Shown here piece after piece: positions 55,936-63,726 of a DNA stretch of 64,000 nucleotides. This DNA is from Actinokineospora auranticolor. GTDB lineage: Bacteria > Actinomycetota > Actinomycetes > Mycobacteriales > Pseudonocardiaceae. A program made the translations under genes and the position numbers. Where the stretch lies: the NCBI RefSeq assembly GCF_002934265.1, contig NZ_PTIX01000014.1:124001-188000 (forward strand), given 5' to 3'. Position 1 is the stretch's first letter; every line of letters starts with the position of its first letter. Below the pieces are notes generated by a model. The model did no database searches. It saw nothing but the letters and a program-made list of their open reading frames with translations, and was not told the origin of the DNA.

Positions 55936-56859
55936 ATGCGGTTGATCATCGACACCGACCCGGGCATCGACGACGCCCTGGCCCTGCTCTACCTCGCCGC
56001 CCAACCCGGCGTCGAGATCGCGGCCGTGGGCAGCGTGCACGGCAACGCCCCCGCGCCGCGCACCGCCGCCAACGCGCGGCGGGTGCTGGATGAGGCCGGT
56101 CTGCGCGACGTCCCCGTCGCCGTCGGCGCCCACCGGCCGCTGGCCCAGCCGCTGCGGACCTCGGAGTTCGTCCACGGCGACGACGGCCTGGGCGGCGAGG
56201 GCGGCGACGTCGACGTCACCCGCGGCGAGTCCGCCGCCGAGCAGCTGGTCCGGCTCGCGCGCGCCAACCCCGGGCGGTTCACCCTGCTGGCGCTCGGCCC
56301 GCTGACCAACGTCGCCCTGGCCCTGCTCCTCGAACCCGACCTGCCCGACCTGCTCGACGCGGTGGTCGTCATGGGCGGCGCCATCCGCGTCCCCGGCAAC
56401 CGCACGGCCCACGCGGAGGCCAACGTCCACCTGGACCCGGAGGCCGCCGACCTGGTCCTCGGCGCCGGTTTCCGGCTGACCCTCGTCGGCCTCGACGTCA
56501 CCGAGGCCGTCCGCGTCGACAGCGCCTGGATCGACGCCCTCAACGCGTCCCCCGCGCCCGTGGCCCGCTTCTCCGCCGCGGCCCTGCGCTACTACGTGGA
56601 CTTCTACACCAAGGCCCTGGGCTACCGGACCTTCACCCCGCACGACCCGCTGGCCGCCGCGATCCTGCTCGACCCCACCCTCGCCACCTACGACCACCTG
56701 GCGGTCGGCGTCGAGCTGACCGGCACCCACACCCGGGGCCGGACCGTCGCCGACCTCCGGGGGAACCGCGCCGAGGGGACCGGCCACCGCATCGCCGTGG
56801 CCAGGACCGTCGACACCGCGCGGTTCCACAGTGGACTGCTCGCGGCGCTCACCCGCTGA
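55936..56859 (+). CDS. Ribonucleoside hydrolase (IunH/Rih family)
   Basis: A 307-residue nucleoside N-ribohydrolase. The calcium-binding signature is IIDTDPGIDDALAL at the N-terminus, with the GGAIRVPGNRTAHAEANVHL loop, VGLDVTEAVRV and the catalytic His in FTPHDPLAA. It cleaves nucleosides to base and ribose in salvage; pyrimidine or purine preference cannot be read. ATG 55936 has GGAGGG 7 bases upstream. Its end overlaps by 11 bases the convergent EcfA gene. Confidence 0.93.
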   Translation: MRLIIDTDPGIDDALALLYLAAQPGVEIAAVGSVHGNAPAPRTAANARRVLDEAGLRDVPVAVGAHRPLAQPLRTSEFVHGDDGLGGEGGDVDVTRGESAAEQLVRLARANPGRFTLLALGPLTNVALALLLEPDLPDLLDAVVVMGGAIRVPGNRTAHAEANVHLDPEAADLVLGAGFRLTLVGLDVTEAVRVDSAWIDALNASPAPVARFSAAALRYYVDFYTKALGYRTFTPHDPLAAAILLDPTLATYDHLAVGVELTGTHTRGRTVADLRGNRAEGTGHRIAVARTVDTARFHSGLLAALTR

Positions 56860-57526
56860 GCAGCGCCAGGTACGCCGCGACCGCCTCGGCCGGGGTGCCG
56901 TCGGCCACGACGCGGCCCTCGTCGAAGACGACCGCGCGGTCGAAGTCCGCCAGCAGGTCCAGGTCGTGGGAGACCACGACCACCTGCTGCGCCAACCCGG
57001 CGACCACCGCCACGACGCGGCGCTTGTTGCGCAGGTCGAGCAGCGTCGTCGGTTCGTCGAACACGATGTACGCCGGATCCGTCACCAGCACCGCGGCGAT
57101 GGCCAGCAGCTGCTTCTGCCCGCCGCTGAGCAGGTGCGCGGGGTGGTCGCGGTACTCCGCGAGCCCGAAGTCCGCCAGTGCCCGGTCCACCAGCCCGGGG
57201 ATCGACACCTTCGGCACGTCGTGGTGCTTGAGCCCGAACGCCAGGTCCTCCGCCACCGTGGGCATCACGATCTGCACGTCCGGGTCCTGGAACACGAACC
57301 CGACCCGCCGCCGGACCTCGCGCCCCCGTTTCCGGGTGTCCAGTCCGTCCACCCGTACCCGACCCTCGGTCGGCACGATCAGTCCATTGAGGAGCCTGGC
57401 GAACGTGCTCTTGCCCGAACCGTTGGCGCCGATCACCGCCACGCGCCGCTCGGTCAGCGCCAAGTCCACACCGCGCAGGACCCAGCGGTCGCCGAAGCGG
57501 TGACCCACACCGGAAAGCTCGATCAC
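56849..57526 (-). CDS. bioM: ECF transporter ATPase (BioM/EcfA-like)
   Basis: A 225-residue ABC ATPase: Walker A GANGSGKSTFARLL, Q-loop FVFQDPDVQIV, signature LLSGGQKQLLAIA, Walker B YIVFDEPTTLLD and switch His VVSHDLDLL. The FQDPDxQ sequence is characteristic of energy-coupling-factor ATPases. One ATPase gene only, so it would work as a homodimer, as BioM does. It is the last gene of the operon, with its start overlapping the bioY stop by four bases. It energises biotin import with the EcfT protein encoded at 58587. Confidence 0.88.
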   Translation of the reverse strand: MIELSGVGHRFGDRWVLRGVDLALTERRVAVIGANGSGKSTFARLLNGLIVPTEGRVRVDGLDTRKRGREVRRRVGFVFQDPDVQIVMPTVAEDLAFGLKHHDVPKVSIPGLVDRALADFGLAEYRDHPAHLLSGGQKQLLAIAAVLVTDPAYIVFDEPTTLLDLRNKRRVVAVVAGLAQQVVVVSHDLDLLADFDRAVVFDEGRVVADGTPAEAVAAYLALLSG

Positions 57527-58083
57527 GCGCCCGCCCGCTCGCGCGGCTCGACCAGGGGGTAGGCCCGGCGCACCGCCACGGCCGCCAGGGACGCCACGAC
57601 CACCTTCGCCGCGTCACCGGGCAGGAACACGACAGATCCCGTGAACGCCCTCCCCAGCGGCAGCCCGCCCACCACCGCCATCCACGGGATGCCGATCGCG
57701 TACAGCACCAGCGCCCCACCCACGGCGTTGCACAGCAGGGCGAGCGCCAGGTTGTACCGGCGCCAGCACAACTCCGTGAGCAGTCCCACGACGAACGCCC
57801 CGACCGGGTACGCCAGGACGAACCCGCCCGTCACCCCCATGATCACGCCCAGCCCGCCGCGCCCGCCCGGCAGCACCGGCAGGCCGATCGCCACCAGCAC
57901 CACGAACAGCAGGATCGCCGACCCGCCGCGCCGCGCGCCGAGCACCGAACCCGCGAGCATGACGCCCAGCGTCTGCGCGGTGAACGGCGCGGGCACCAAC
58001 GGCAACTCGATCAGCGGGAAGAACCCCAGCACCACCATGATGGCCGCGAAGAGCGCGACCAGGGCGATGTCCTTGCTGCGCAC
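57523..58083 (-). CDS. bioY: BioY biotin-specific S component
   Basis: A 186-residue membrane protein with six hydrophobic segments and BioY landmarks: LVPAPFTAQTLGVMLAGSVL, LGARRG, GGRGGLGVIMGVTGGFVLAY and LPGDAAKVV near the C-terminus. It binds biotin from outside. I start at GTG 58083, which has GGGGGA 5 bases upstream and gives the family-typical VRSKDIALVALFAA; an in-frame GTG at 58101 has no ribosome site. It lies 63 bases downstream of the avidin-like gene and overlaps bioM. Confidence 0.93.
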   Translation of the reverse strand: MRSKDIALVALFAAIMVVLGFFPLIELPLVPAPFTAQTLGVMLAGSVLGARRGGSAILLFVVLVAIGLPVLPGGRGGLGVIMGVTGGFVLAYPVGAFVVGLLTELCWRRYNLALALLCNAVGGALVLYAIGIPWMAVVGGLPLGRAFTGSVVFLPGDAAKVVVASLAAVAVRRAYPLVEPRERAGA

Positions 58084-58146
58084 CTGTTCCCCCAGTTCCA
58101 CAAAGGAGGGTGCGCACGGTGCCGGGCCGCGCGCACCCGGTTCCGG

Positions 58147-58590
58147 TCAGCCTCGGGGCCCCAGCACGTCCAGCGGGTGTGAGGAGGCGTGCCCGAGCGC
58201 GAGCCGGGCCTCGACCTCCTCGTCGGTCGCGGGTTGCCGGTAGAACTTGTCGACCGCGACCATCGTCGACTCCCAGACGCTCTTCACGGTGCTCTGCACC
58301 ACCATCAGCCAGGTCGTGGAGATCCACTCGCGACCGACGGCGAAGTACTGGCCGCTCCACGTGGTGAGCGAGTTCGAGTCGTTCACCCCGTTCTGCCACG
58401 ACACGCTCCACCCGACGGCCGCCCCGTAGCCCGCGGTGGGCGCGGCGTTGTACTTCCCGACGAGCGCGTAGACGCCGGGCGCGTTGCCCACCAGGGACTG
58501 GTAGGTGCCGGTGAGCGTGACCCCGTCGGACGCGGTGGCGATCGTCATCTTGGAATTGAGCTCGTTGTACCAAACTCCGTTGACGCTCAT
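58147..58590 (-). CDS. Avidin/streptavidin-family biotin-binding protein, no signal peptide
   Basis: A 147-residue single avidin barrel. Every streptavidin biotin contact has a counterpart: Asn and Ser in WYNELNS, Tyr, Ser and Asn in GTYQSLVGN, Trp in VGWSVSW, Ser, Thr and Trp in SNSLTTWSG, Trp in ISTTWLMV, and the late Trp and Asp in VWESTMVAVDKF. The last tryptophan, which in streptavidin caps the neighbouring subunit, is kept. Streptavidin and known bacterial avidins are mostly secreted; here the protein starts directly at the barrel, so it should be cytoplasmic. The C-terminal 30 residues (EVEARLALGHASSHPLDV) are extra. It overlaps ecfT by 4 bases and precedes bioY, placing it inside the biotin uptake operon. 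Confidence 0.93.
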   Translation of the reverse strand: MSVNGVWYNELNSKMTIATASDGVTLTGTYQSLVGNAPGVYALVGKYNAAPTAGYGAAVGWSVSWQNGVNDSNSLTTWSGQYFAVGREWISTTWLMVVQSTVKSVWESTMVAVDKFYRQPATDEEVEARLALGHASSHPLDVLGPRG

Positions 58591-59249
58591 TGATCCCCCT
58601 GCGGATCGCTGGTTCGGACGGCCCGCACGCTAGCGCGGGACCGCCGGGAGCGCTCCCCGGAGCCGACGCCCCGCGCGTCCAGCGCCTCGCCCAGTCCGTC
58701 GGCCAGCCGCAGGGTCCGCACCAGCAGCGGGACCAGGAACGCGGTGCTCCGCTCGACTCCCCGGGCGCGCTGGGCGGCGCGCACCAGATCGGCCTGTTCC
58801 TTGATCACCGGGATGAACCGGATGGTCATCGCGACCACCAACCCCACCCGCTCCGGCCGCACCCCGAGCGGGCGCAGCGGCCGCAGCGCCGCCTCGACCG
58901 CGGCCACCACCGCCGAGGTGCGGGTGGTCAGCGTGACCAGGTTCGCCAGCGCGACCAGCACCAGCACCCGCAGCCCGACCAGCGCGGCGACGACCCACCC
59001 GGCGATCAGCACCTGCGTCGCGACGATCAACACCAGGAACGGCAGCACCGGCGCCGACTGCCGCCAGGCCACCCGCGCGGGCACCCGAGCCAGCGCGTAC
59101 AGCAGCGCCACCGCGCCCAGCGACGCGCCCAGCACGGGCGCGGACCCGGCGAAGAACACCGCCGTGCCGACCGCCACCAAGATCGACAGCTTGACCCCGG
59201 CGGGCAACGCGTGCACCGGGGTCCGGGCGTCGTGGTAGAGGCTCAACAT
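58587..59249 (-). CDS. bioN: ECF transporter transmembrane protein (EcfT/BioN)
   Basis: A 220-residue membrane protein with about five helices and the two Ala-Arg-Gly coupling motifs of EcfT proteins, AAQRARGVE and EALDARGVG, that grip the ATPases. MTIRFIPVIKEQADLVRAAQ is the usual segment before the first. Together with BioY and the single ATPase it forms a dedicated biotin importer. It starts 2 bases after the synthetase stop and overlaps the avidin-like gene. Confidence 0.9.
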   Translation of the reverse strand: MLSLYHDARTPVHALPAGVKLSILVAVGTAVFFAGSAPVLGASLGAVALLYALARVPARVAWRQSAPVLPFLVLIVATQVLIAGWVVAALVGLRVLVLVALANLVTLTTRTSAVVAAVEAALRPLRPLGVRPERVGLVVAMTIRFIPVIKEQADLVRAAQRARGVERSTAFLVPLLVRTLRLADGLGEALDARGVGSGERSRRSRASVRAVRTSDPQGDQ

Positions 59250-59251
59250 GG

Positions 59252-60691
59252 CTACCGCACAGTATCGCCCGCCCGGTCGAGCACCATCTCGCGCACCCGC
59301 GCCCGGTCGACCTTGCCCGTTGGGCGGTGCGGAAGGGCAGCGAACTCGAACAGCCGCTGCGGGCACTTCTGCCGCGACAGGTGCTCGGCCGCCCGGTCCC
59401 GCAACGCCGCCAGGTCGAGCCGCGCCGCACCGCGCCAGCGCACCGCCGCGCACACCACCTCGCCCCAGTACCCGTCCGGCAGACCGACCACCGCGGCCTC
59501 CGCGACCTCGCCCAACCGCAGCAGGGCCGCCTCGACCTCCTCCGGGTAGACGTTGACCCCGCCGCTGACCAACATCCCGCGCGTCCGCCCCAGCAGGTGC
59601 AGGTGGCCGCCCGCGTCGAGCCGCCCGATGTCGCCGGTGGTGAAGAACCCGTCGGCGTCCGGGCCCGAGCCGTCGTCGGGGGAGAGGTAGCGGGTGAACA
59701 GCATGTCGCTGCGCACGTGCACCCGGCCGGGTTCGCCGGGCGGGACCTCGGTGCCGCCGGGACCGCGCACCGACAGCTCCACCCCCGACACCGGCCTGCC
59801 CACCGAGTCCTCGGGACCGGTGCCGCCGTGCAGGACCGACACCAGGCTCAGCTCGGTCGCGCCGTAGACCTCGGCGGTGTCGGCCCCGGGGAACAGCTCG
59901 ACCGACCGCGCGCGCCGGGCCGGTGACCACTTCGCGCCCGCGGACAGCACGGTCCGCACCAGCGGGAAGTGGCCGCGGCCGTGGTCGACCAGCGCCTCGA
60001 ACATGGTCGGGACCAGGTACAGCACGGTCACCGGGTGCTCGCGGACCCGGGTCAGGACCAGGTCCGGGTCGAAGCGGGGCAGCAGGTGCAGGGTCGCGCC
60101 CGCGGCCAGGGCGTGCACGGCGCCGAAGAGGAAGTGCGAGTGGCCCAGGGAGCCCGGGACCAGCACGTGGTCGTCCGGGCCGATGCCGAACTCCTCGTCG
60201 TAGCGGTCGAAGGTGCGCGTCCACGAGCGGTGCGCGCGGACCGCGGCCTTGGGGCGACCGGTGCTGCCGGAGGTGAACCCGACGTAGAACGGTGCGGTGT
60301 CGGGGACCTCGGGCAGGTGCGGCGCGCGCGGCCGCGACGCCACCCAGTCGCGCAGCCCGCCGAGGGGGACGCCCGGGACGTCGTGGTCGGTGCCGGTGAA
60401 CACCAGGCTCGGCCGGGTCTCGGCGAGGACCGCCGCCACCTCGGCCCGGCTCCACGCCGGGTCGTAGACCTGCACCGGCACACCGGCGAGCGCCGCCCCG
60501 AGGAAGACCTCCAGCACCTCCACCCGGCGGTCGGCCAGCAGTGCGACCCCCGCGGCGTGCTCGGGGCCCAGGGCGTGGGCGAAGGCGCGGGCCCTGGCGA
60601 GCAGGGCCGCGTAGTCGACGGTCGCGCCGTCGCCGGAGACGACCGCCGGTCGGTCTCCCGCGTGCGCGGCGAAGCGGGCGGCGATCGTCAT
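59252..60691 (-). CDS. Acyl-CoA synthetase-like AMP-forming ligase
   Basis: A 479-residue ANL-superfamily enzyme with A3 FTSGSTGRPKAAVRAH, A5 EVYGATELSLV, A7 FFTTGDIGRLDAGG, hinge LLGRTRGMLVSGGVNVYP and the catalytic lysine in RPTGKVDRARV. Its acid substrate is unknown. First gene of the biotin operon, only 2 bases from bioN. This context suggests activation of a biotin precursor (pimelate-like) or of biotin itself to a CoA thioester, but nothing in the motifs proves it. ATG 60691 is used; the frame extends upstream without family similarity. Confidence 0.9.
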   Translation of the reverse strand: MTIAARFAAHAGDRPAVVSGDGATVDYAALLARARAFAHALGPEHAAGVALLADRRVEVLEVFLGAALAGVPVQVYDPAWSRAEVAAVLAETRPSLVFTGTDHDVPGVPLGGLRDWVASRPRAPHLPEVPDTAPFYVGFTSGSTGRPKAAVRAHRSWTRTFDRYDEEFGIGPDDHVLVPGSLGHSHFLFGAVHALAAGATLHLLPRFDPDLVLTRVREHPVTVLYLVPTMFEALVDHGRGHFPLVRTVLSAGAKWSPARRARSVELFPGADTAEVYGATELSLVSVLHGGTGPEDSVGRPVSGVELSVRGPGGTEVPPGEPGRVHVRSDMLFTRYLSPDDGSGPDADGFFTTGDIGRLDAGGHLHLLGRTRGMLVSGGVNVYPEEVEAALLRLGEVAEAAVVGLPDGYWGEVVCAAVRWRGAARLDLAALRDRAAEHLSRQKCPQRLFEFAALPHRPTGKVDRARVREMVLDRAGDTVR

Positions 60692-60817: not shown

Positions 60818-61372
60818 ATGAACCCACCCGAGCGCTGGACCCAGGCCACCGTCCACCCCGACATGTGGGCGGACCCGGCGGACGACCCCCGCGAGAGCGA
60901 CGGTCCCAGCCCGGACGGTGAACTCGCGACGCTGCGCGGCTACCTGCGCGACTACCGCCTGACGCTGCGGATGAAGTGCGACGGCCTGACCCCCGCGCAG
61001 CTGGCCCACCGCTCGGTCCCGCCGTCGACGATGTCGCTGCTGGGCCTGGTGCGCCACCTCGCCGAGGTGGAGCGGGACTGGCGCACGTGGATCACCGACG
61101 AGGACCTGCCCAAGCTCTACGGCCCGCGCGACGGCGACTTCGACGGCGCGGTGGGGGAACCGGCCGCGGTGGCCGCCGCCTTCGCGGACCTGGCCCGGGA
61201 GCAGGCGGCCACCGACGCGGAACTGGACCGGCACCCGGACCTCGGCGCGGCGCCGGGGCGCAGGTCCATCGCGATCCGCGACCTGCTGGTCCACCGGATC
61301 GAGGAGTACGCCCGGCACTGCGGCCACGCGGACCTGCTCCGGGAATGCGTGGACGGTCGTGTCGGCCAGTGA
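60818..61372 (+). CDS. DinB/DUF664-family protein
   Basis: A 184-residue four-helix-bundle protein: LRGYLRDYRLTLRMKCDGLT, LVRHLAEVERDWR (metal-binding His), and LLVHRIEEYARHCGHADLLR with the later His pair. This is the DUF664 branch of the DinB family, mycothiol-dependent or metal-binding enzymes in actinobacteria. It is divergent from the biotin operon with 126 bases between them. ATG 60818 lacks a strong ribosome site and may be leaderless. Confidence 0.88.
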   Translation: MNPPERWTQATVHPDMWADPADDPRESDGPSPDGELATLRGYLRDYRLTLRMKCDGLTPAQLAHRSVPPSTMSLLGLVRHLAEVERDWRTWITDEDLPKLYGPRDGDFDGAVGEPAAVAAAFADLAREQAATDAELDRHPDLGAAPGRRSIAIRDLLVHRIEEYARHCGHADLLRECVDGRVGQ

Positions 61373-61711: not shown

Positions 61712-62968
61712 ATGCTCGCCGATATGGCGGCTCTTTCCACGGTGACCTACCGGCGTTTGTTCCTCGCCCAGGTCGTCGCGTTGGCGGGGACCGGGTTGAC
61801 CACCGTCGCGTTGGGGCTGCTGGCCTACGACCTGGCCGGTGCGGACGCCGGGGTGGTGCTGGCCGGGGTGTTCGCGGTGCGGATGGCGGCCAACGTCCTG
61901 GTCGCGCCGATCGCGGCGGCGGTGGCGGACCGGGTGCCGCGGCGGGTCCTGCTGGTGTCCTTGGACTCGGTGCGGTGCGCGGTCGTGCTGGTGTTGCCCT
62001 GGGTGGGTGCGGTGTGGCAGGTCGTCGCGCTCGTGGGGGTGCTCCAGGTCGCGTCGGCGGCGTTCACCCCCGCGTACCAGGCGGTGATCCCGCTGGTGCT
62101 GCCGGACGAGCGGGACTACACGCGGGCGCTGTCGCTGTCCCGACTGGCCTACGACCTCGAAGGCGTGCTGAGCCCGGTCCTGGCGGCCGGGTTGCTCGCG
62201 GTCGTCGGGTTCTCGTGGCTGTTCGTCGGGACCGCGCTGGGTTTCCTGCTCTCGGCGGCGCTGGCGCTGAGCGTGCGCCTGCCCGACACCGCGCCCGGGT
62301 CCGCGCCGGTCCTGGCCCGCACCCTGGTCGGCATCCGCCACTACCTGCGCGCCCCGCGACTGCGCGCGCAGCTCGGCCTGAACCTGGGGGCGGCCGCGGC
62401 GGGGGCGATGGTGCTGGTGAACACGGTCGTGCTCGTGCGGGCGGGGTTCGGGCTCGGGCAGGTGTCGGTGTCGGTCGCGCTGGGCGTGTTCGGCGCCGGG
62501 TCCGCGACCGCCGCGCTGCTGCTGCCCCGGGTACTCGACCGGCGACCGGAACGCGTGGTGATGGTGCGGGCCTGCGGCGCGCTCGTGGTGCTGATGACCG
62601 CGGGCGCGGTACTCCTGTGGGCCGGTGGCGGGTGGTGGGTGCTGCTGGTCCTGTGGTTCGCCATCGGCACGGCCTGCTCCGCCGTCCTCACCCCGGTCGG
62701 CCGCCTCCTGCGCGCCGCGGCCGCGCCCGCCGACCTGCCCGCCGTCTTCGCCGCCCAGTACGCGCTCTCGCACGCCTGCTGGCTGGTCACCTACCTGCTG
62801 GCGGGCCTGCTCGGCGGCGCGCTCTCCCCGGCCGCCGCCCTCGGCTGCCTCGCGCTCGTCGCGCTCCTGGGCCTCGCCCACGGCACGCGGACCTGGCCGG
62901 GGGAACCGGCCGACGAGTCCATAGTGGACCGTGATCACCGGTGGCGGTCGGCGATGGCCCGCAGGTAG
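61712..62968 (+). CDS. MFS transporter, MFS_3-like exporter
   Basis: A 418-residue transporter with 12 predicted helices (TYRRLFLAQVVALAGTGLTT at the start, IAAAVADRVPRRVLLVS as the helix 2-3 loop motif). This subgroup includes enterobactin exporter EntS-like and macrolide efflux proteins. ATG 61712 or in-frame ATG 61724 may be used; neither has a ribosome site, so the transcript may be leaderless with TATTTATG overlapping the start. The upstream inverted repeat suggests specific repression. Its 3' end overlaps the convergent SDR gene by 34 bases. Confidence 0.85.
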   Translation: MLADMAALSTVTYRRLFLAQVVALAGTGLTTVALGLLAYDLAGADAGVVLAGVFAVRMAANVLVAPIAAAVADRVPRRVLLVSLDSVRCAVVLVLPWVGAVWQVVALVGVLQVASAAFTPAYQAVIPLVLPDERDYTRALSLSRLAYDLEGVLSPVLAAGLLAVVGFSWLFVGTALGFLLSAALALSVRLPDTAPGSAPVLARTLVGIRHYLRAPRLRAQLGLNLGAAAAGAMVLVNTVVLVRAGFGLGQVSVSVALGVFGAGSATAALLLPRVLDRRPERVVMVRACGALVVLMTAGAVLLWAGGGWWVLLVLWFAIGTACSAVLTPVGRLLRAAAAPADLPAVFAAQYALSHACWLVTYLLAGLLGGALSPAAALGCLALVALLGLAHGTRTWPGEPADESIVDRDHRWRSAMARR

Positions 62969-63726
62969 TCGTGGACACCGCCGCGGCGCCCCACCCAGGA
63001 CGCCAGGCGGGGGGAGAGCGCGCTGACCGCGTTCGCGATCCGCGCCACCGGCGGGGCGACGGTGATCTCCGCGCGGTCGCGGCGCACGCACCGCAACACC
63101 GCCGCGGCGACGTCCTCCGGCCCGACGCGACCGAGCGCCCGGGGACGCCCGCCCGGCGCGTCGGTCTCGGCGACCAGTGTCGGGTGGACCACGGACACAC
63201 CGACCCCGGTACCGCGCAGTTCCTCCCGCAACGCCCGGGTGAAGCCGACAACGCCGTGCTTGGCCGCGGAATCCAGGACGCCGTACGGGTAGCCGGTCCG
63301 GCCCGCGACGGAGCCGATGGTGACGATGTGGCCCCGCCCGGCGGCGAGCATGTCCGGCAGCAGGCGGGCGGTGAGCGCCTGGGTGGCGATGAGGTCGAGC
63401 CCGATCACCCGGCGCACGTCGCCCGCGGTGACGTCGCGGAAGTGCGCGACGTGCGCGGCGGCCGGGTTGGTGACCAGCAGCGTCGGTGGGCCGAGCACCT
63501 CGCGCACGACGCGCACGACCCGTTCCCGCTCGTCGTCGTCGGTGAGGTCGGCGGGCACGACGAAGGTGTCGTACCCGGTCAACCGGCGTTGCGTGGCGCG
63601 CGGGTCGTCCTCGGCGCGGGCGACGATGGCGAGCCGGACCCCCGCGCGGGCGAGGTGTTCGGCGACCACCGGCCCGATCCCGAGCGCGGCCCCGGTGAGC
63701 ACGGCCACGGCACCGTCCAGTTCCAC
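62935..63726 (-). CDS. Short-chain dehydrogenase/reductase with Asp in place of the catalytic Tyr
   Basis: A 263-residue classical SDR by fold: cofactor motif VLTGAALGIGPVV (TGxxxGxG), LLVTNPAAAH for the NAG motif, IGSVAGRTGYPYG with the catalytic Ser. The YxxxK motif reads LDSAAKHGVVGF, that is Asp152 and Lys156, so the catalytic tyrosine is missing; a single T-to-G change (TAT to GAT) would explain it. The enzyme may be inactive, or use the Tyr in GYPYG. GTG 63726 follows GGGGGTG. Role unknown. Confidence 0.85.
   Translation of the reverse strand: MELDGAVAVLTGAALGIGPVVAEHLARAGVRLAIVARAEDDPRATQRRLTGYDTFVVPADLTDDDERERVVRVVREVLGPPTLLVTNPAAAHVAHFRDVTAGDVRRVIGLDLIATQALTARLLPDMLAAGRGHIVTIGSVAGRTGYPYGVLDSAAKHGVVGFTRALREELRGTGVGVSVVHPTLVAETDAPGGRPRALGRVGPEDVAAAVLRCVRRDRAEITVAPPVARIANAVSALSPRLASWVGRRGGVHDYLRAIADRHR

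Follow-up and report, generated by a model that had tools for sequence, protein, structure and literature searches.

We analysed a stretch of 64,000 nucleotides from Actinokineospora auranticolor (assembly GCF_002934265.1, contig NZ_PTIX01000014.1, positions 124,001 to 188,000; hereafter the window), in which a gene for an avidin-family protein lies inside a predicted operon for biotin import. We tentatively propose, at somewhat less than even confidence, that this operon is a unit for biotin uptake plus protection, in which a cytosolic avidin would bind imported mimics of biotin. The new element is a link, predicted from gene comparisons, between an avidin-importer operon and the clusters for biotin antimetabolites. 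In a literature search by title and start of abstract, largely in open-access journals and partly limited to first results, we found no description of an avidin in a biotin importer operon.

Architecture of the operon

The initial annotation described five leftward genes with short gaps or 4-base overlaps; the coordinates and frames hold, and the families were confirmed by Pfam. The set spans 56849-60691 on the minus strand and consists, from its upstream end, of the following genes.

59252-60691, minus strand: AMP-forming acyl-CoA ligase, 479 amino acids (Pfam AMP-binding, 4e-58, plus a C-terminal domain)
58587-59249, minus strand: EcfT, BioN-like transmembrane coupling protein (CbiQ/EcfT, PF02361, 6.9e-13)
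58147-58590, minus strand: avidin-family protein, 147 amino acids, without signal peptide and with SSHPLDVL in its C-terminal tail (PF01382, 5.6e-22)
57523-58101, likely start 58083, minus strand: BioY, the biotin-binding S-component (PF02632, 2.2e-34)
56849-57526, minus strand: EcfA, BioM-like ATPase (ABC_tran, 1.9e-26; TIGR04520, 6.3e-63, under the cut-off)

The ligase and EcfT genes are separated by a 2-base gap, whereas 4-base overlaps join EcfT to the avidin and BioY to EcfA. Between the avidin and BioY there are 45 bases, or 63 if BioY starts at 58083, the more likely position because of the starts assigned to BioY relatives by a GC-based gene caller. These spacings suggest that the five genes form one operon and may be read as a single transcript. 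The sole solved-structure match of BioY is the biotin transporter 4dve (E 2.7e-21), with the PGD..K segment aligned, and BioY, EcfT and EcfA are predicted from their families to form a biotin importer of the energy-coupling factor (ECF) class. The top NCBIfam model for the ligase is the acyl-CoA synthetase PRK07638, with a score under the model cut-off. The BioYMN importer of Corynebacterium glutamicum (PMC3398298) likewise has its S, A and T components in one operon; the window differs from it by the avidin between the T and S genes and by the ligase upstream.

An avidin with a streptavidin-like pocket and no export signal

The avidin matches PF01382 with 78.7 bits against a cut-off of 24, covering positions 2-115 of 116, and its best solved-structure matches are streptavidins and tamavidin 2. 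We compared its pocket with that of Streptomyces avidinii streptavidin at 17 positions, which we take to be the biotin contacts, and 14 of them are identical; the hydrogen-bonding residues and all four tryptophans are among these. The other three carry mild changes (A86S, L110M and S112V), so that the earlier statement that all biotin contacts are kept was slightly overstated. The absence of a signal peptide, also noted earlier, stands: upstream of the ATG the frame is open for about 13 codons without any other start codon, which leaves no room for one. With the NCBIfam streptavidin model the protein scores 122.7 bits against a cut-off of 300.

Window proteins were compared with 77 avidin loci from two sets of 20 and 57, some of them duplicate; the larger set came from a genome scan with an alignment, a single-protein query having found none. 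In a tree of 47 rows, all 16 avidins that have a signal peptide fall into one clade (support 100/99), and the 31 signal-less rows lie on the other side. The window avidin is placed outside the secreted clade and pairs with that of Actinokineospora enzanensis (support 99/97). The criterion for a signal peptide was a hydrophobic stretch preceding the domain, judged mostly by script and, for L031 and L032, by eye, and not with SignalP. From the larger set 18 loci were left out of the tree, namely L053 (same as L030), L070, L071 and L073 (copies of L066, same strain), L075 (sav2-type, an oversight), L083, L093 and L096 (Actinomycetospora, two others being kept) and L100-L109 (divergent or partial). 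From the smaller set 7 were used, after dropping L028 and L029 (duplicates), L033-L037 (Actinomycetospora), L038 (start lost), L023 and L039-L041 (divergent) and L024 (not a clear avidin).

Among the signal-less rows are records named as Bacteroidota, Nitrospirota, Planctomycetota, Acidobacteriota, Chloroflexota and an archaeon; a number of these are metagenome-assembled genomes (MAGs). With 31 of 47 rows signal-less, and with a 2021 survey reporting signal peptides in only about half of putative bacterial avidins (PMC8033661), the initial premise that known bacterial avidins act outside the cell is not supported. Signal-less avidins are thus not new as such; those of the survey resemble the window protein in family and in lacking an export signal, and differ in that the available part of that source does not mention linkage to an importer.

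The tails of the two groups carry different motifs. The dipeptide HP occurs in 20 of the 31 signal-less tails, and 1000 shuffles gave a mean of 4.5 and at most 10. None of the 16 rows of the secreted clade has HP, and 11 of them have NP. All these rows are related, and the counts are not independent. In streptavidin C1 an NP-bearing tail is reported to occupy the biotin site (PMC7924230). That protein has a C-terminal helix and a tail with a proline motif where the window avidin has SHP, but it is of the secreted type and bears NP instead of HP. The tail of the window avidin may gate its pocket in the same manner, and a tail retained in the cytosol might soften the avidin trap.

Recurrence of the operon with and without the avidin

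The order ecfT-avidin-bioY-ecfA recurs in A. enzanensis (DSM 44649, NZ_KB894407.1), where the avidin is 58% identical and overlaps ecfT by the same 4 bases, and the concern that the arrangement belongs to one strain only does not apply. EcfT is 72% identical to its A. enzanensis counterpart and 73% to that of Streptomyces olivoreticuli. BioY is present in 5 of 16 Actinokineospora genomes; two of these five, the window and A. enzanensis, have the avidin between ecfT and bioY, and in the remaining three nothing separates ecfT from bioY (ecfT-bioY-ecfA). Across the Pseudonocardiaceae, BioY was found at E <= 1e-40 in 17 of 386 genomes. We viewed wider loci for 15 of the 17 (all except G473 and G474), and again only the window and A. 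enzanensis have the avidin in the operon. From these proportions, the insertion is probably derived and limited to part of one genus, where it was retained as the two avidins drifted apart to 58% identity. A simple counting method gave ratios of nonsynonymous to synonymous substitution (dN/dS) of 0.56 for the avidin, 0.44 for EcfT, 0.21 for EcfA and 0.13 for BioY. The source genome (8.4 Mb) has one avidin match and one BioY match at E <= 0.001. A mobile origin was considered and rejected, a relative being found in no phage record and in two Streptomyces plasmid records.

Between the avidin and bioY, at 58100-58140, lies a strong GC-rich hairpin; it was not retained as a feature, its z being only -1.1 to -1.4 and A. 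enzanensis having no counterpart. No palindrome common to four upstream regions (window ligase, A. enzanensis ecfT/bioB gap, bioA and S. olivoreticuli ligase) was found by script and by eye.

Resemblance to biotin-antimetabolite clusters

Upstream of the operon the window contains the following genes.

60818-61372: Mycothiol-S-transferase family gene, between the operon and the dehydrogenase
61742-62968: major facilitator superfamily (MFS) gene, between the operon and the dehydrogenase, its 3' end overlapping that of the dehydrogenase by 34 bases
62935-63726, minus strand: short-chain dehydrogenase (SDR) of the streptavidin/acidomycin-locus type, outside the operon (adh_short, 1.4e-36)

At E <= 1e-62 this SDR occurs in only 2 of 382 Pseudonocardiaceae genomes (six candidates were scored per genome), the source genome and Amycolatopsis sacchari, and in both it lies within 5 kb of an avidin. 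It is 52-60% identical to the SDRs of eight other avidin loci, which are six of the sav2 type, S. olivoreticuli and A. sacchari. In the six sav2-type loci the identity is 52-55% and the order is avidin-MFS-SDR-NRPS (nonribosomal peptide synthetase). The acidomycin cluster of Streptomyces sp. RLA021 is reported to run avidin, MFS, SDR, NRPS, AMP-binding protein and cytochrome P450 (PMC13111796), and so begins with the order of the six loci. The window thus has an acidomycin-type SDR close to an avidin; an NRPS and AMP ligase beside avidin-MFS-SDR were not found in it, and those of S. olivoreticuli match the window ligase alone, at 31% and 28%.

Six avidin loci have ligases with 56-60% identity to that of the window, among them five Streptomyces loci with a sav1-type streptavidin. 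The sav1-type ligases of S. avidinii and Streptomyces virginiae adjoin a BioF-like enzyme, a ketosynthase and a P450, and from this gene order we take the sav1-type ligase to be MkpE of the alpha-methyl-KAPA (7-keto-8-aminopelargonic acid) cluster. Disruption of mkpE is reported to leave the alpha-methyl-KAPA product unaffected (PMC13336041). The likeness of SDR and ligase to genes of the streptavidin, acidomycin and alpha-methyl-KAPA loci points to a connection that the initial annotation had not noticed. When compared with the streptavidin biosynthetic gene cluster nexus of S. avidinii and S. virginiae (PMC13336041) and with the acidomycin cluster (PMC13111796), the window shares an avidin with a very similar pocket, besides the SDR and ligase identities given above. 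It differs in that the streptavidins there are secreted, in that BioY and EcfT were not found in the stretches of up to 12 kb around them, and in that no relative of the NRPS, P450 or BioF-like genes of these clusters lies near the window operon.

In S. olivoreticuli a ligase-EcfT-BioY-EcfA operon (58, 73, 78 and 73% identical to the window) is convergent to a secreted streptavidin. The order there is avidin, importer operon, MFS and SDR, NRPS, AMP ligase and P450, and the NRPS is 68-69% identical to that of the six sav2-type loci. In A. sacchari a region of about 16 kb carries avidin-bioB-SDR in one direction and, on the opposite strand, NRPS-AMP ligase-(dioxygenase-like)-BioY-EcfA-EcfT. The importer there was acquired separately, its BioY (52% identical) belonging to a different type. 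The bioB on the avidin side is 78-79% identical to the second bioB of A. enzanensis. The other bioB of A. sacchari (L213, contig C64:7590-8576) has one in-frame TGA, the bioB beside the avidin being of the second type. Avidin, importer and a further bioB therefore come together in different arrangements. Genes in the fetched loci were called with a simple GC-based caller, which missed bioF in L202, and the names MFS, P450, dioxygenase, bioA and bioD were read by eye unless a family match is given.

Biotin synthesis in the source strain and its relatives

The source genome has a bioB over the family cut-off, beside bioA and bioD (both named by eye), and elsewhere a bioF-like gene 61% identical to a BioF-like enzyme of S. 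avidinii, whose score of 398 bits falls short of the bioF cut-off (426). The strain can probably synthesise biotin itself, import not being its sole source. In A. enzanensis a second bioB (L050:16524-17594) lies 86 bases upstream of ecfT, divergent from the avidin operon. This second-type bioB, 68-71% identical to Streptomyces bioB, was also seen in G406 (L114:7996-9066) and G447 (L188:6806-7894); it occurs in genomes that have, or whose relatives have, the usual bioB of the other type, and in two of the three cases it stands at the BioY operon.

The ligase as a probable companion of BioY

The initial annotation had treated the ligase as belonging specifically with the avidin, a view that we reject. 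Among 20 actinomycete BioY loci, hand-picked from 120 genomes with BioY (4 of the same order, 10 of one Streptomyces-type family and 6 others) and none with an avidin match, six have a ligase 30-42% identical to that of the window, each with a thiolase and EcfT. Conversely, a close relative of the ligase is missing from A. enzanensis despite its avidin operon, none being found at E <= 1e-60 in the other 15 Actinokineospora genomes. A short ligase remnant was seen just upstream of ecfT in G449 (L190:7568-7930). The yhfT product of other bacteria is presumably of the PRK07638 type. In Staphylococcus, yhfS-yhfT are reported to be under BirA control together with bioY (PMC6391492); this pairing, described for Staphylococcus and Bacillus (PMC6391492, PMC11089781), resembles the window in having an acyl-CoA ligase in the biotin regulon, whereas the window has no thiolase and has an avidin. 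The ligase looks like an old companion of BioY and not a part of the avidin system.

Neighbours of signal-less avidins

We surveyed 122 of 174 listed neighbour proteins from 28 signal-less loci. A general link between signal-less avidins and biotin genes is not supported, no biotin family being among the 25 commonest. Phosphofructokinase, universal stress (Usp), CBS and AAA/FtsH-type proteins recur two to four times, a combination that recalls a dormancy or low-oxygen gene set. Of the 28 loci, two have biotin genes nearby: L094 clearly and L076 less so. In L094 (5293-8700), from a Rickettsiales MAG, a signal-less avidin is convergent to bioB and near bioD and bioA. A Chitinophagaceae MAG has two avidin genes close together (L087:4321 and 6001).

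Discussion

Acidomycin is reported to block BioB and to be bound by streptavidins; Sav1 and Sav2 neutralise it, and in Sav2 it occupies the biotin pocket (PMC13336041). Cells exposed to a compound of this kind have three possible answers: uptake of biotin, an additional BioB, or binding of the compound. The window operon would provide uptake and binding, and A. enzanensis would have all three. In the mechanism that we propose, EcfT, BioY and EcfA would import biotin and thereby bypass any block in its synthesis, and the avidin, made together with the importer, would bind acidomycin-like antimetabolites that enter through the importer or arise in the cell, so removing them from circulation. The C-terminal tail probably competes for the pocket, in which case free biotin would not all be locked up. 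The ligase, as the older companion of BioY operons, may activate some acid, perhaps a biotin-related one. Taken more broadly, the idea that the cytosolic avidin is a functional partner of an ECF vitamin importer, be it as a sponge conferring immunity to mimics or as a trap making biotin uptake one-way, seems to us only just short of an even proposition. The initial description of a high-affinity binder in an importer operon holds in so far as a signal-less avidin with a nearly unchanged pocket overlaps ecfT in two species; its reading as a plain store or sensor is less favoured than protection from biotin mimics, because the SDR and the ligase resemble genes of the streptavidin, acidomycin and alpha-methyl-KAPA loci.

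Several observations weigh against uptake plus protection. With full affinity, a cytosolic avidin would capture scarce biotin ahead of any mimic, and this competition for the cell's own biotin is equally a difficulty for the hoarding and buffering explanations considered below. The SDR stands alone, 2.2 kb from the operon with two unrelated genes between, and a family scan at E <= 1e-62 found no SDR of this type in A. enzanensis. Searches of the window with 5.9 kb of adjoining sequence, and of 32 kb surrounding the A. enzanensis operon, found no relative of the acidomycin-type NRPS, AMP ligase, P450 or MFS; in each genome the search was confined to these regions. Among the 77 avidin loci, BioY or EcfT is near the avidin at only two besides the window (A. 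enzanensis and S. olivoreticuli), and 13 of the 15 BioY loci viewed in the family have the operon without an avidin. Finally, the avidin is constrained, but the least so of the four shared genes.

Importer and cytosolic avidin may instead lock away environmental biotin and starve neighbours while the cell lives on its own synthesis, which would be the streptavidin strategy carried out intracellularly. The biotin synthesis genes of the source genome, the overlap of the avidin with ecfT in both species, the nearly unchanged pocket and the occurrence of the same importer operon next to a secreted streptavidin in S. olivoreticuli are all consistent with this. However, self-made biotin would be trapped as well, and one avidin site per biotin is costly, so that we consider hoarding unlikely. 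We also find it improbable, to a similar degree, that the protein is a generic cytosolic avidin which protects against feeders or competitors after lysis and whose position in the operon is an insertion accident that stuck. Signal-less avidins are indeed widespread, three congeners have the operon without one, and the neighbour survey shows no common biotin family, although single hits would not appear in it. Against an accident, the gene was kept in two species at 58% identity with its pocket and the same ecfT overlap, avidins stand near importer operons in two other genera, and biotin synthesis genes lie near 2 of the 28 signal-less loci. We know of no avidin that releases biotin quickly, and 13 of the 15 family loci manage without an avidin in the operon. 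A tail-gated avidin that takes biotin from BioY and hands it to biotin protein ligase, as buffer, carrier or sensor, accordingly seems slightly less likely still, despite the HP tail of 20 of 31 signal-less avidins (related rows, no independent count) and the pocket-occupying tail of streptavidin C1 (PMC7924230).

The role of avidins for their producers is still debated. At the loci of the window, S. olivoreticuli and A. sacchari an avidin occurs together with a biotin importer and with genes whose type is familiar from antibiotics directed against biotin synthesis; two of the cases add a further biotin synthase. The window locus provides a compact system in which an intracellular avidin could be tested, and an avidin near BioY or BioB may serve as a guide to further antibiotics against the biotin pathway. 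If the avidin is indeed a functional partner of the importer, avidins would have an intracellular job, of which secreted streptavidin would be one derived use.

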